Positions 11,759 through 18,100 of a stretch of DNA of 64,000 bases are shown here, piece by piece. Where the stretch lies: positions 296,955-360,954 of the forward strand of contig PNMI01000001.1 of NCBI GenBank assembly GCA_013823565.1, read 5' to 3'. How positions within the stretch are numbered: the stretch's first letter is position 1; every line of letters starts with the position of its first letter. The DNA comes from Sphingobacteriaceae bacterium (lineage in GTDB: Bacteria > Bacteroidota > Bacteroidia > B-17B0 > Aurantibacillaceae). The notes below the pieces were generated by a model that was given only the letters and a program-made list of their open reading frames with translations, was not told the origin of the DNA and did no database searches. The translations under genes and the position numbers were made by a program.

Positions 11759-12760
11759 ATGAGAAAGATTTATTTAAATATGATTGTAGTAATGTTGTTG
11801 AAAGTACTTCCTGTATTGTCGCAGGATATGCATTTTTCGCAATTTTATGCATCTCCATTATATTTAAATCCAGCATTTGCGGGCGCCAATGTTTGCTCTA
11901 GATTTTCATTAACGTATAGAAATCAATGGCCAGGAGTATCAACAGCTTATAAATCATATTTAGGTTCCTTCGATCATTGTTTTAGTAAAAATAACATTGG
12001 CGTTGGATTACAATTTGCTAGCGATATTTCCGGAACGGGCGGATTAAAAACAACGATGATAAATCCACTCATTTCTTATGAAACTACTTTATCAAGAAAA
12101 TATTCTTTACGCTTTGGTGTTCAGCCTGGAGTTACAATGAAAAGTATTGAGATGAGTAAGTTAACATTTGGGGATCAATTGTATAGAGGTGGAAACGTGA
12201 CGACTGTTGAATCTCCGACCTTATCTAGAACTTTTTTTGATTTTGGGGCAGGTGCAATTTTTTATGGTTCTAATTTTTGGATTGGTACTTCTGCATACCA
12301 CTTAAATAAACCTAATGAGTCGTTATTTGGAATTAGTAATACACGATTGCCGATTCGATACTCTGTTCATGGAGGATATAAATACAATTTGAATCAAGAT
12401 GAGAAGCCTGGAGATATAAAAAAAACATTAACAGCAGCTTTTAATTATAGAGGTCAAGAAAAGTTCGATCAATTTGATATTGGAGTTTATTATACAAGAT
12501 CAATTTTAAATATTGGATTATGGTATAGGGGAATTCCTGTATTAAAATCGTATAAGCCAGGGTATAAAAACAATGACGCTTTTGTTTTGATTATAGGTTT
12601 AGAAATGGAAAGATTTAATATTGGATACAGTTATGATATTACAATTTCTGAATTATCAAATGTTACAAAAGGTTCTCATGAAATCACCTTAAGTTTTCAA
12701 ATGTGTAAAATCAAACAAAAAAAGAAAAAACTACAATTAATATCATGTCCAAAATTTTAA
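11759..12760 (+). CDS. PorP/SprF family type IX secretion system membrane protein
   Basis: QDMHFSQFYASPLYLNPAFAGA start and GYSYDITISELSNVTKGSHEITLSF end are typical of PorP/SprF. Confidence 0.95.
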   Translation: MRKIYLNMIVVMLLKVLPVLSQDMHFSQFYASPLYLNPAFAGANVCSRFSLTYRNQWPGVSTAYKSYLGSFDHCFSKNNIGVGLQFASDISGTGGLKTTMINPLISYETTLSRKYSLRFGVQPGVTMKSIEMSKLTFGDQLYRGGNVTTVESPTLSRTFFDFGAGAIFYGSNFWIGTSAYHLNKPNESLFGISNTRLPIRYSVHGGYKYNLNQDEKPGDIKKTLTAAFNYRGQEKFDQFDIGVYYTRSILNIGLWYRGIPVLKSYKPGYKNNDAFVLIIGLEMERFNIGYSYDITISELSNVTKGSHEITLSFQMCKIKQKKKKLQLISCPKF

Positions 12761-12771
12761 AACCATAACTT

Positions 12772-13212
12772 ATGAAATCAATCATTTATTTTTCTCAAGC
12801 AGTATTAATAGGCCTATCTTTTTTACTGTATTCTTTTGTTACTAATCCTCCTTGTGAGTCTGATGAGTTTGTAGATAGTTGTGCCCCTGCCTTAGGAAAT
12901 TTTGTATTTATCAAAACATTTAATATCAACGTTGATAAGCCAGGAAATAAAACAGAATATTCATATGTGTTAAGCCGTGATTCTGAATATAAAATTGTAG
13001 TATGCGATCAAAATGACCCTGGCAAAAAAATGATCATAAATTTTTACGATAGAAGTAAAAAGTTAATAGCTTCTAATTATTTAAAAAGCAGTAAAAAAAT
13101 ATTTCCTACTGTAAGTTATAAATGCGCTGCAACAGGAGTTTATTATGTAGAAGCTTTTTTTGAAGGTGATAAAAGTGGATGTGGTATAAATATCTTAGGA
13201 TTTAAAAAATAA
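12772..13212 (+). CDS. small secreted Cys-containing protein, paralog of 3496..3951
   Basis: GKKMIINFYD, KCAATGVYYVEAFFEGDKSGCGINILGF; hydrophobic N-terminus. Confidence 0.75.
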   Translation: MKSIIYFSQAVLIGLSFLLYSFVTNPPCESDEFVDSCAPALGNFVFIKTFNINVDKPGNKTEYSYVLSRDSEYKIVVCDQNDPGKKMIINFYDRSKKLIASNYLKSSKKIFPTVSYKCAATGVYYVEAFFEGDKSGCGINILGFKK

Positions 13213-13220
13213 TTTAATAC

Positions 13221-14561
13221 ATGAAAAATTGGTTACTTGTATTTTTTGTATCCGTTTTAGCTAGCAAAACGTTAGCCCAGTCGGTAGGTGGAAGCACATC
13301 TGGTTCTACCTATTTTTGTATACCGACTAATTCGGGTTTTGTTTCCTTAAGTGGCTTTTCTGGAACAATTCAACATTGGGAATCTTCGATAAATAATGGG
13401 TTAAACTGGACATTTATCTCAAATCCTACAACAACACAAAATTATAGTAATCTTAGTCAAACAACTTGGTTTAGGGCTATTGTTAAAAATGGTGTTTTTC
13501 CTCCCGATACATCAACAATATCTATTATTACCATTCACACTGCTGCCTTTGGTGGAAATATTTCTGGTGGAGGCTCGTTTTGTGTATCAGCACCTTCAGG
13601 TACATTAAGTTTGAGTAATCAAGTTGGGCAGGTGTCGTTTTGGGAATATTCTGTTAATGGTGGCGCATTGTGGACAATGATTACTAATACATTATCTACA
13701 TTACCTTATTTGCCAGTTACTCAAAACACAATCTATCGTGCTATTGTTCAAAATGTTTCTGTATGTCCAAAAGACACTTCCGATGAAGTTTCATTTATTA
13801 TTTCTCAACCAACAGTAGCAGGTTTTTTGCAGCAAAATGATACCGCCTGTTATGCTAATAATCTTGATACGCTCAATTTAAGTGGACAAACAGGAAATGT
13901 GATGGATTGGATTTATTCTACCAACTCAGGCGCTTCATGGAATTTAGTTGGGAGTACACAGAGTGCATATACATACTCAAATATTACTCAAACCACTTTA
14001 TATAGAGTTCTTGTTAAAAATGGCGCATGTCCAGAAGATACAACTTTACCTGTTAAAATTGTGGTTGTAAATGCTAACGTTGCTTCCGCAGGTTCAGATA
14101 AAACAATAACAAGATATGAGAGTGTTCAATTAAACGGAAGTGGAAATGGAACTCCAGAATGGACTCCTAATACTGAAATAAGTAATCCAAATATTTTTAC
14201 TCCAATTGTTACACCGAGTAATACAACAACTTATATATTAACATTAACCGATCAGCATTCTTGTTTTAGCTCTGATTCTGTAACGATTACTGTTATCATT
14301 CCATTTCCAAATGCAATTACTCCAAATGGAGATGATGTTAATGATTATTTTTTAATCGATAATATTCAATTATATAAACAAAGTTCATTATTAATTTTTA
14401 ATAGATGGGGTAATTTGGTATACAAAGCATCACCTTATAATAATGAATGGAATGGGAAATCTAAAAGTGGTAATGATCTTCCAGATGATATATATTATTA
14501 CACTTTAGATTATGGAGTAGGAGAAAAGCCTATTTCAGGATATGTATTAATTAAACGATAA
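13221..14561 (+). CDS. T9SS type B (gliding motility-associated C-terminal domain) surface protein
   Basis: Three ~90-aa Ig-like repeats; C-terminus FPNAITPNGDDVNDYFLI...IFNRWGNLVYKAS...WNGKSKSGNDLPDDIYYYTLDYG. Confidence 0.9.
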   Translation: MKNWLLVFFVSVLASKTLAQSVGGSTSGSTYFCIPTNSGFVSLSGFSGTIQHWESSINNGLNWTFISNPTTTQNYSNLSQTTWFRAIVKNGVFPPDTSTISIITIHTAAFGGNISGGGSFCVSAPSGTLSLSNQVGQVSFWEYSVNGGALWTMITNTLSTLPYLPVTQNTIYRAIVQNVSVCPKDTSDEVSFIISQPTVAGFLQQNDTACYANNLDTLNLSGQTGNVMDWIYSTNSGASWNLVGSTQSAYTYSNITQTTLYRVLVKNGACPEDTTLPVKIVVVNANVASAGSDKTITRYESVQLNGSGNGTPEWTPNTEISNPNIFTPIVTPSNTTTYILTLTDQHSCFSSDSVTITVIIPFPNAITPNGDDVNDYFLIDNIQLYKQSSLLIFNRWGNLVYKASPYNNEWNGKSKSGNDLPDDIYYYTLDYGVGEKPISGYVLIKR

Positions 14562-14568
14562 AAATATA

Positions 14569-15495
14569 ATGAAGAAATTTATTTACAGTGTCATTTTATT
14601 CATCGTAACAAATGAATCTTTTTGTCAACAAGATCCAATGTACTCTATGTATATGTTTGATAAAGTATTAATCAATCCAGCATATACGGGAAGCTCAAAT
14701 TGGGCAGTTGGTACAGTAAAGTATAGAAATCAATTTATTGGAATGGCTGGTAATCCAGTAACTCAAACATTTAACTTTCATTCACCGATACAAAGCAAAC
14801 ATATTGGAGTAGGTATAAAAGTAATTAATGATAAGATTGCCATTATGAATACTTTGAATGCTGCTTTACTATTGTCATATCACTTAAATCTTGCAGGTGG
14901 AAAATTATCAGCAGGTATTGATGCAGGTATTTACAATAGAAAAATAGATTATTCAAAATTAATATTAAGTAGTAGAGGAGATAATTCTATTCCTACTTCA
15001 GCACAATCGTCTCTTGTTCCAGATTTATCTTGGGGTTTATATTATCAAAAAAAGCAATGGTATGTTGGTTTCTCACAGTATCATTTAATTAAAACAAGTT
15101 TTAATGATAAAGCAATATCAAAATCTAATTCAAAATTAGCGAATCACTTGTATTTTATTGCGGGAAATGTATTTACACTTAATAAATATTGGACGGTAGA
15201 ACCTAGTATGTTATTAAAAATTCAACCCTCAAGTGCAACGCAATTAGATTTTAATACGATGCTTTATTATCAAGATAAATTTGGAGCAGGAATCCAATAT
15301 CGCACAGGAGATGCAATAGCTGCTGTTGTTAGATATAACGTAATAGAAAGTTTAAGAATTACTTATTCATATGATATTACAATATCAAAATTATCAGGTT
15401 ACTCAAAAGGAGCCCATGAAATTATGATATCTTATGGGATTAAATTACCTCCGCCTCCAGTTCAAAAAGAAACCCATCCTAGATATTATTTCTAA
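14569..15495 (+). CDS. PorP/SprF family type IX secretion system membrane protein
   Basis: QQDPMYSMYMFDKVLINPAYTGSS ... ITYSYDITISKLSGYSKGAHEIMISY. Confidence 0.95.
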   Translation: MKKFIYSVILFIVTNESFCQQDPMYSMYMFDKVLINPAYTGSSNWAVGTVKYRNQFIGMAGNPVTQTFNFHSPIQSKHIGVGIKVINDKIAIMNTLNAALLLSYHLNLAGGKLSAGIDAGIYNRKIDYSKLILSSRGDNSIPTSAQSSLVPDLSWGLYYQKKQWYVGFSQYHLIKTSFNDKAISKSNSKLANHLYFIAGNVFTLNKYWTVEPSMLLKIQPSSATQLDFNTMLYYQDKFGAGIQYRTGDAIAAVVRYNVIESLRITYSYDITISKLSGYSKGAHEIMISYGIKLPPPPVQKETHPRYYF

Positions 15496-15497
15496 AT

Positions 15498-17546
15498 ATG
15501 GAAATGTATAGATTTATTAAAATGAAAAAAACACTAATTGTAATAATAATATTGTACGTAATGCCTGTTTTTTCTCAACGAAATTTAGAGAAAGGCGATA
15601 GGTATTTCAATATTAATCAGTTCGAATCTGCTATTAAATATTATACGATGGATTTGACTTCTAAAAATAAGAAAGCTGCAGAAAAGTCAGCTCAAAAATT
15701 AGCAGACTGTTATCGTATTATAGGCGAATTTGAAAAAGCAGAAGAGCTGTATAGAAAAATATTAAAACGAAAAAAGAAAGATCCTATTCATTATTTAAAT
15801 TATGCATTGTCTTTAAAAAGTAGTGCTAAATATGCAGAAGCAAAATTACAGTTTGAAGAATACATAAAGTTAAAACCTGAAGATTTAATGGGGCCAGTTT
15901 ACCTCCAATCATGTGATTCTGCACAAAAATGGTTAGATGAAACGATAGGCAAAGAAGTAAAAAGCATTGATAAAATCAATACCGAGTATTCAGAGTTCAG
16001 CCCTTGTATTTATAATCATAAATTATATTTTTCTTCTTCTAGACCAGGAAGTAAGCAAGCTTTAATCAGTTTTGATGGAGGAGGTGAAGTTCATAGATTA
16101 GATATTTATAATATTGATTTTAGTCGTATAGATGTAAAAGAAGATATAAAAACAGATATAGTAAATTTTAAGGAAATTAATTCACCAAAACACGAAGGAG
16201 CGATTTGTTTCTCTAAAGATGGTAAGGAGCTATATTTTACCAAAACAGTAAAAGGAAATAGAAATGAAAAAACGAATGATATTTTAAATACACTTCAAAT
16301 ATTTTATAGTAAAATAGATTCTACTGGAAAATGGACAGAGCCTAAAAGTGCTTTTTCGTTTAATAGTACAAATTATTCGGTAGCTCACCCAAGTCTTTCT
16401 CCTGATGGAAATACTATTTTCTTTATGTCTGATATGAAAAATGGATTTGGAAAAACAGATATTTACTATTGTATTAAACAAACTAACGGAAAGTGGAGTC
16501 CTCCAAGAAACATAGGAAATTCTATAAATACGTTTGGTTATGAAATGTTTCCCTTTATTTCTGAATCAGGGATACTGTATTTTTCATCTAACGCTCATCC
16601 AGGAATGGGGCAGTTGGATGTTTTTGAAGCAAGTTTAGTGGATGGCAAATGGACCAATGTTAAAAACGTGAAGCCTCCTATCAACTCAATTGGAAATGAT
16701 TTTGGAATTGTATTAGATGGTTTAAATCATCATGGTTTTTTTAGTTCAGACAGATTTAATGGAAAAGGATTGGAGGATATTTATAGTTTTGCTGATGAGC
16801 AACCCATAACTTTAAATTTTGAAAATGATACATTATACTTTAGAGACAAAAGTATTTTTGATGAGGTTAAATATAAAATCACTAATGAAAAAGATAAGTC
16901 AGAAGTTGAATTGCTTGCTGTAAACGGAGTGTTTAAAGTTAAGGTAGAAAAAATGACTCCATATAAAATGGTAGCTCGAAAAAATGGGATGTTGTTTAAT
17001 AAAATTTTCTTTGAATATAATCATCAACAAACTATTTATGATTTAAAACTAAAAGTAACCTCAAAACCTATTTTATTAGACGGACTTTTTAATTTTTCGA
17101 AAAGCACTAATGATAAAGAAACGAATTTGACTATCACTGATTCTACAGGTTTAGAAAGCAAACATCAAATACGGAGTTTTTATAGTATTTGCGACACAAT
17201 TAAAGTCAATCAAAACTATCAAATCACCACAAAAAAACTTGCCGAGGCATTGAATTTAAGTGATAATAAAGTTTTTGATGATCGCACGATTCATTTAAAA
17301 ATAAAAGTTTTTTCCTCTAATTTAAGTCTTGAAAATACAGCTGTTGTAATAAAAGAAAATGAAAAAATTATTACAACATTAAACAATAGTGCTAATGGAG
17401 AGTTTAATTGTTATTTAAAATATAACTATCCTAAAAAATATACTATAGAGATCTCATCGGATGGCTTCACTACAAAAAATATAGAATTTGAAACTAGAGA
17501 AAATCAGTATGCAGATATTCTTGAAGTGGAACTTTTTGGAAAATAA
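15498..17546 (+). CDS. TPR + PD40/WD40-like propeller protein, PorE/SprE-operon-like, no OmpA domain visible
   Basis: N-terminal TPR (GDRYFNINQFESAIKYYTMDL, EFEKAEELYRKIL); PD40 motifs (SFNSTNYSVAHPSLSPDGNTIFFMSDMKNGFGKTDIYY). Start may be ATG 15522. Confidence 0.85.
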   Translation: MEMYRFIKMKKTLIVIIILYVMPVFSQRNLEKGDRYFNINQFESAIKYYTMDLTSKNKKAAEKSAQKLADCYRIIGEFEKAEELYRKILKRKKKDPIHYLNYALSLKSSAKYAEAKLQFEEYIKLKPEDLMGPVYLQSCDSAQKWLDETIGKEVKSIDKINTEYSEFSPCIYNHKLYFSSSRPGSKQALISFDGGGEVHRLDIYNIDFSRIDVKEDIKTDIVNFKEINSPKHEGAICFSKDGKELYFTKTVKGNRNEKTNDILNTLQIFYSKIDSTGKWTEPKSAFSFNSTNYSVAHPSLSPDGNTIFFMSDMKNGFGKTDIYYCIKQTNGKWSPPRNIGNSINTFGYEMFPFISESGILYFSSNAHPGMGQLDVFEASLVDGKWTNVKNVKPPINSIGNDFGIVLDGLNHHGFFSSDRFNGKGLEDIYSFADEQPITLNFENDTLYFRDKSIFDEVKYKITNEKDKSEVELLAVNGVFKVKVEKMTPYKMVARKNGMLFNKIFFEYNHQQTIYDLKLKVTSKPILLDGLFNFSKSTNDKETNLTITDSTGLESKHQIRSFYSICDTIKVNQNYQITTKKLAEALNLSDNKVFDDRTIHLKIKVFSSNLSLENTAVVIKENEKIITTLNNSANGEFNCYLKYNYPKKYTIEISSDGFTTKNIEFETRENQYADILEVELFGK

Positions 17547-17688
17547 GTTTTTTGGAGAGTAAGGGCGAGTATTTTATCGATTTTGTTTGTCCCGCATTAT
17601 GTTGTTCGAGTCTAAGTTCTAAATTCTCACAATGTCCTTTGTAAAAAGACATGTCAATTTCACTTTGAATAACATAAGCATAAAACAT
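17494..17688 (-). pseudogene. truncated GIY-YIG nuclease-like ORF
   Basis: MFYAYVIQSEIDMSFYKGHCENLELRLEQHNAGQTKSIKYS matches the GIY-YIG/UvrC-like N-terminal pattern. The conserved C-terminal half is missing, and the ORF overlaps the 3' end of the convergent gene. Confidence 0.6.
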
Positions 17689-17704
17689 ATTTCAAAATCA
17701 ATTG

Positions 17705-17776
17705 TGGCTCCGGTAGGAATCGAACCTACATCAAACGTTTAGGAAACGCTTATTCTATCCATTGAACTACGGTGCC
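17705..17776 (-). tRNA. tRNA-Arg (anticodon CCT)
   Basis: Reverse complement folds to a cloverleaf: acceptor GGCACCG/CGGAGCC (A4:A69 mismatch), anticodon loop TTCCTAA, T-arm GTAGG-TTCGATT-CCTAC. Confidence 0.9.
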
Positions 17777-17830
17777 AGTAATGAGTTTAAATTTAATCTT
17801 TAGTTTTCAATTTTATTTCGAAATATAAAA

Positions 17831-17936
17831 AAGTTTAGGTAATGCTTATTCTATCCTCGCCTGAACGAATTCATTCGTGCAAGCCCGCCTGAATACCCCT
17901 CGTTCTAGTCGGGCGCAACATTGAACTACGGTGTCA
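17831..17936 (-). pseudogene. degenerate partial copy of tRNA-Arg (5' half), interrupted by a 63-bp palindromic insert (17857..17919)
   Basis: + strand AAGTTTAGGTAATGCTTATTCTATCC / insert / ATTGAACTACGGTGTCA, versus ACGTTTAGGAAACGCTTATTCTATCCATTGAACTACGGTGCCA in the intact tRNA. Confidence 0.85.
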
Positions 17937-18025: not shown

Positions 18026-18026
18026 G

Positions 18027-18100
18027 CTCCCTCTCCTGGGCTCGAACCAGGGACCCCATGATTAACAGTCATGTGCTCTAACCAGCTGAGCTAAGAGGGA
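18027..18100 (-). tRNA. tRNA-Asn (anticodon GTT)
   Basis: Reverse complement TCCCTCTTAGCTCAGCTGGTTAGAGCACATGACTGTTAATCATGGGGTCCCTGGTTCGAGCCCAGGAGAGGGAG; perfect acceptor stem; loop CTGTTAA. Confidence 0.97.

Follow-up and report, generated by a model that had tools for sequence, protein, structure and literature searches.

The window analysed here is a 64,000-nt stretch of the genome of a Sphingobacteriaceae bacterium (assembly GCA_013823565.1, contig PNMI01000001.1, positions 296,955 to 360,954). It holds an intact transfer RNA (tRNA) gene, tRNA-Arg(CCT), next to a partial second copy whose D-loop is split by a palindromic insert, and beside the intact gene lies the remnant of a gene for a small GIY-YIG nuclease. 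The locus belongs to a pattern seen repeatedly in Bacteroidota: small GIY-YIG genes are found beside duplicated tRNAs, the redundant one of which is interrupted by palindromes. It is likely, in our judgement, that the broken segment is the dead copy from a duplication of tRNA-Arg(CCT) that arrived with a tRNA-associated GIY-YIG nuclease element; it probably has no function of its own. A preliminary description of the segment had recognised the broken copy, but was incomplete in that it missed the composition of the insert from two tandem palindromes (35 + 28 bp), the truncated GIY-YIG gene and the widespread association of such genes with tRNAs.

Positions ~3-44 of tRNA-Arg(CCT) are present twice in the window, with the partial copy (17829-17933) on the same strand as the intact gene (Table 1). 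In this copy, tRNA positions 3-17 are identical to the intact gene in 15/15 bases and positions 17-44 are 89% identical, while the remainder of the tRNA including the T-arm is lacking. The D-loop is split by exactly 63 bp (17857-17919), and removal of these rejoins the flanks as TTCAAT/GGATAG, exactly as in the intact gene. One base at the edge of the insert is ambiguous, and a 1-bp target duplication is possible. The preliminary description was right on the partial duplicate without a T-arm and on the clean split, and the inverted repeats and doubled CGCCTGAA that it saw in the insert are real. It had also placed the uninterrupted site in an intact tRNA 90 bp away; the site is there, but the end of the intact tRNA-Arg is 54 bp from the start of the noted segment and 80 bp from the insert.

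An orthologous locus is present in a genome of the same genus (G002), where copy 1, beside tRNA-Asn, is an intact and uninterrupted tRNA at the position of the broken copy, i.e. the empty site that the preliminary description had proposed to look for in relatives. Copy 2 of G002 remains mainly as a 3' end, followed by the same GIY-YIG remnant (92% identical over 38 amino acids). The window shows the reverse, copy 1 being broken and copy 2 intact, so that loss has been reciprocal. Other genomes of the genus with neighbouring tRNA-Asn and tRNA-Arg have one tRNA-Arg and no GIY-YIG gene. Since G002 has an intact copy 1, a reduced copy 2 and the same GIY-YIG remnant, the duplication is common to G002 and the window, and insertion and 3' deletion in copy 1 postdate their split, unless copy 1 of G002 was repaired by gene conversion. 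A T-run past the broken half can be aligned with the tail of the putative copy-1 terminator of G002, so that the deletion seems to extend from the anticodon arm into this terminator. In two further genomes, G020 and G007 (L020, L021), the tRNA-Arg 3' end recurs ~87 bp downstream, with no GIY-YIG match.

The insert consists of two tandem degenerate palindromes of 35 and 28 bp, which in the sense of the tRNA read GTTGCGCCCGACTAGAACGAGGGGTATTCAGGCGG and then GCTTGCACGAATGAATTCGTTCAGGCGA. The latter is 25/28 identical to a palindrome at the identical tRNA-Arg site in a Bacteroidia metagenome-assembled genome (L100), where it sits in two tandem broken tRNA-Arg copies; the former is more degenerate and most resembles the palindrome at the same tRNA site in L117. 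Taken alone, the palindrome is degenerate and modest: folded as DNA it reaches z = -1.9, with 9 of 200 shuffles folding equally well, and as RNA only z = -0.6. That it is more than a chance structure is argued by the 73 exact copies of its core found in other genomes and by related palindromes that break the same tRNA site elsewhere. The 20-bp core, CGCCTGAACGAATTCATTCG, has these 73 exact occurrences in the ~85,000 GTDB genomes, for a chance expectation that we estimate at ~0.5 (264 Gb, both strands); they fall mostly in Bacteroidota, where the core is dispersed. Thirteen of the 73 lie inside tRNA segments as precise 28-bp insertions, meaning that after removal of exactly 28 bp the flanks show no more than three mismatches, often none, to a tRNA across 22 bp. 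The other 60 are outside recognisable tRNA sequence, and most of these have no GIY-YIG gene nearby. A GIY-YIG match within 1 kb accompanies 9/73 copies, or 10/74 when the window is counted.

The preliminary description took the insert for a repetitive extragenic palindromic (REP)-like mobile palindrome. The dispersal of its core in other Bacteroidota and its entry into an uninterrupted precursor speak for this, and a short palindrome with a family consensus elsewhere is indeed present; the expected repetition in its own genome is not, as the 63-mer is a single copy in the 3.79-Mb assembly. No second full copy was found with the 63-mer, the 20-bp core or the whole segment in this genome, 89 genomes of the family, phages, plasmids and viral contigs, and an Rfam search of the insert gave no match. 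Palindromes of the form GCCCG-N(4-34)-CGGGC are few and varied in this genome (7 versus 1 in the control). The term REP-like fits the insert nevertheless.

This D-loop site of tRNA-Arg(CCT) is interrupted in no fewer than 10 additional genomes, by palindromes of 28-63 bp that are related but not the same; one of these genomes, G117, belongs to another family. L116 and L117 carry almost the same palindrome in opposite orientations, which points to recurrent insertion and not to inheritance of a single event. Several tRNA copies are of full length and broken by insertion alone (L121, L155, L158, L167); therefore, insertion probably precedes truncation. Palindromes do not, as a strict rule, insert exclusively in hairpin loops, a frequent site after tRNA position 10 being in the D-stem. 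In G117 (L245 and L246, G117:C3, ~52.9 kb and 103.3 kb), a GIY-YIG gene and a palindrome-broken, nearly full-length tRNA-Arg are separated by 50 kb from the intact tRNA-Arg; a fragment, likewise broken by a palindrome, precedes the intact gene. In Gelidibacter salicanalis (L076:3260-3560), one palindrome is nested within another in the D-arm of a tRNA-Met fragment.

The GIY-YIG remnant of the window matches Pfam PF01541 over residues 1-39 (E = 2e-5) and is 58% identical over 40 amino acids (E = 4.5e-12) to a GIY-YIG protein of G036, whose gene adjoins a palindrome-broken tRNA-Arg. Being truncated, the window copy is surely inactive. Intact relatives match PF01541 with E = 4e-13 and 6e-17, and the Y, G, R, HN and E residues are conserved across 113 GIY-YIG proteins, so that both the domain and its catalytic residues are present. 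With GIY-YIG proteins as queries, we surveyed the 89 family genomes together with 14 in which core-palindrome loci occur. Restricted to those flanked on each side by 250 bp or more of sequence, the count was 111 distinct GIY-YIG loci. An intact tRNA lies within 250 bp in 77 of the 111, on the same strand in 77/77, upstream of the GIY-YIG gene in 42 and downstream in 35. From loci without a GIY-YIG match (12 tRNAs in 422 kb), a few per cent would be expected at most. The tRNAs beside GIY-YIG genes belong to 22 isotype/anticodon classes, and the most similar GIY-YIG protein is encoded at the same tRNA class in 52/76 cases; 2000 shuffles of the labels gave 5.8 on average and never more than 17. 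Isotype follows protein similarity, as would be expected of a homing element with a lineage-specific single target. In 13 loci (L061, L093, L094, L108 and others) the stop codon of the GIY-YIG gene lies 9 bp inside the downstream tRNA, gene and tRNA sharing sequence.

Adjoining the surveyed loci we found 131 tRNA fragments, in other genomes often 96-100% identical to the intact gene. A strong hairpin stands directly at the break in 77 of 197 scored internal ends (39%), versus 0.85% of control positions; counted per locus, hairpin-abutting breaks occur in 44 of the 70 loci with fragments. The palindromes at breaks are of several classes (CCCGCC.GAACG..CGTTC.GGCGGG; CCTGCCTGCCGGCAGGCAGG; TCCCGA..TCGGGA; TCCGCC..GGCGGA) and occupy D-arm, anticodon and T-loop regions. 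With regard to protection of the element's own copy from cutting, it is the redundant tRNA copy that is interrupted and the retained tRNA that is intact. The remaining three GIY-YIG genes of the window's genome, read by eye, also adjoin duplicated tRNA pieces with palindromes. On contig C21, a tRNA-Ser 5' part interrupted by CCTGCCTGTCGGCAGACAGG is followed by the GIY-YIG gene and the intact tRNA-Ser; on C4, an intact tRNA-Met and the GIY-YIG gene precede a tRNA-Met remnant with TCCGCCAGCTGGCGGA, the terminator being duplicated; and on C15 the GIY-YIG gene has on either side a copy of a tRNA-like 3' end with terminator, one of them holding TCACGCTAGAGCGTGA. A tandem array of ~9 tRNA-Val 5' fragments (positions 1-28 plus the hairpin TCCCGACTAACGTCGGGA, 89-bp spacing) in L185 (G023:C1:2148800-2151400) adjoins two GIY-YIG genes, tRNA-Val and tRNA-Cys.

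According to our proposal, a GIY-YIG gene of the tRNA-Arg(CCT) group would have entered the locus and duplicated the tRNA, giving the order tRNA copy 1, tRNA copy 2, GIY-YIG. One copy being redundant, two REP-like palindromes, arriving successively or as a tandem pair, would then have inserted precisely in the D-loop of copy 1, and loss of the 3' half of copy 1 and of the 3' end of the GIY-YIG gene would have followed. We infer cutting of tRNA genes by the GIY-YIG protein, with the duplication made during repair of the break; in the window copy, insertion would be earlier than deletion. A role of the GIY-YIG protein in palindrome insertion is possible. A more general idea, that a family of small GIY-YIG nucleases in Bacteroidota are tRNA-gene parasites with one isotype per lineage, which duplicate the tRNA, always keep a working copy and direct palindromes into the redundant one, is tentative and rather doubtful.

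Several points weigh against the proposal. The surveyed genomes are related, so that the counts do not represent independent events, and some loci were found via palindrome searches, although the GIY-YIG search of the 89 genomes was independent of palindromes. About one third of the GIY-YIG loci lack an intact tRNA at a distance of up to 250 bp, and a strong hairpin is absent from over half of the fragment breaks. The GIY-YIG proteins consist of the one domain and show no obvious DNA-binding part, in which they differ from classical GIY-YIG homing enzymes, and the proposal does not account for the escape of the restored tRNA from cutting. Finally, gene conversion in G002 could imitate an empty site.

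Among other explanations, nuclease, duplicated tRNA and palindrome might form one selfish system, in which the nuclease cuts the D-, anticodon- or T-loop region and palindromes are mobilised by it or captured at breaks. The 39% of fragment breaks beside GIY-YIG genes that abut palindromes, the core copies in tRNA segments or near GIY-YIG genes and the one site hit repeatedly in both orientations would all agree with this; we nonetheless regard it as unlikely, given that the great majority of core copies lie elsewhere, that palindromes are often within the fragment and not at the GIY-YIG junction, and that survival bias, with insertions tolerated in redundant copies alone, would look alike. Slightly less likely again is an ordinary REP or bacterial interspersed mosaic element (BIME), mobilised by a REP-associated tyrosine transposase (RAYT) and inserted by chance into a tRNA pseudogene of an unrelated duplication. 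The insert does resemble a palindrome pair and the genome holds a Y1_Tnp (RAYT-like) gene, the only one found (L032, G000:C5:2972-3199), but the palindrome that flanks this gene, ACCTGTCAGGTTTTTAAAACCTGACAGGT, is different from the window insert, and the 69 core-palindrome loci hold no homologue of the gene. The RAYT link that the preliminary description had suggested is not borne out, no cognate RAYT having been found, and chance insertion would leave the GIY-YIG association and the recurrent site unexplained.

Could the broken copy be a functional small RNA or tRNA-like decoy that needs its hairpin? Elsewhere, fragments often differ little from the intact gene, and breaks recur at the one site, yet the window copy has fallen to 89% identity after the insert, its RNA fold is no better than that of shuffles, truncation points vary among genomes, the G002 orthologue is a plain working tRNA and no Rfam family matches, all of which makes such a function very improbable. 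tRNA genes are common attachment sites, and a 5' half beside an intact tRNA has the shape expected of an attachment site displaced by a lost integrase-type island at tRNA-Arg. This is the least probable of the alternatives and was largely refuted by the G002 orthologue: because G002 copy 1 is a full tRNA and full-length broken copies exist elsewhere, the half-tRNA points to a later deletion. Moreover, no integrase was found among the eight neighbouring proteins scanned, a scan of nearby genes only.

Palindromes of the window type resemble REP/BIME with RAYT (Y1) transposases in being short, dispersed and partly in tandem pairs without a clear target duplication; they differ in that the window insert is not repeated in its own genome, in that no cognate RAYT was found, and in their recurrent landing in redundant tRNA copies. 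Rickettsia palindromic elements (RPE) are palindromes inserted in protein genes that stay in use; the palindromes described here likewise lie inside genes, but the broken tRNA copies are redundant. RPE are mentioned in a study that also describes CGTC-type REPs in Bacteroidetes and REPs within protein genes, including tRNA pseudouridine synthase genes, but not landing in redundant tRNA copies (PMC3733652). As to the nuclease, UPF0213-like GIY-YIG proteins (PF01541; nearest solved structures 1ywl and 1zg2) share the single domain and the conserved Y, G, R, HN and E residues, whereas the surveyed genes are consistently on the same strand beside a tRNA gene with duplicated tRNA fragments, for which we found no description among these proteins. 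Free-standing homing endonucleases (such as the Seg and Mob genes of T4-like phages) are also small nuclease genes with target specificity that spread near their target and can amplify segments (PMC13096335, on SegB). The surveyed genes are, unlike these, chromosomal and at tRNA genes, with the tRNA duplicated and kept, and with cutting presumed. In the open PubMed Central literature (absence from which is no proof of novelty) we found no description of bacterial GIY-YIG genes paired with duplicated tRNA genes, nor of palindromes breaking redundant bacterial tRNA copies.

The comparison turns a single odd pseudogene into a testable general pattern. If the pattern holds, small GIY-YIG proteins, often annotated as hypothetical, would constitute a class of tRNA-gene elements, and redundant tRNA copies would serve as landing records of REP-like palindromes, providing clean pairs of empty and filled sites that would help to find how palindromes without a RAYT move.

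Table 1. Features of the tRNA-Arg(CCT) locus in the window
Feature	Position	Strand	Basis
GIY-YIG nuclease gene, truncated; recognisable in its N-terminal ~40 residues, unrelated beyond; 15 bp downstream of intact tRNA-Arg	17530..17688	-	PF01541 and G036 match
Intact tRNA-Arg(CCT), copy 2	17704..17776	-	ARAGORN; Rfam RF00005
Spacer; T-run beside broken copy (minus strand) aligns with tail of putative G002 copy-1 terminator	17777..17828	.	Alignment with G002
Broken tRNA-Arg copy 1, tRNA positions 17-44 (D-loop to anticodon arm), 89% identical	17829..17856	-	
Palindrome B (28 bp), a degenerate GCCTGCCCGAATGAATTCGTTCAGGCGG; 25/28 identical to same-site palindrome in L100	17857..17884	-	
Palindrome A, 35 bp, more degenerate, closest to same-site palindrome in L117	17885..17919	-	
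Broken tRNA-Arg copy 1, tRNA positions 3-17, one base common with insert edge	17919..17933	-	
Intact tRNA-Asn(GTT), conserved neighbour anchoring the comparison with relatives	18026..18100	-	ARAGORN; comparison with relatives

Elsewhere in the window (11759-17546), two PorP/SprF genes and genes for a CHU_C-domain protein and a PD40/TPR protein stand in a row, as in gliding Bacteroidota.
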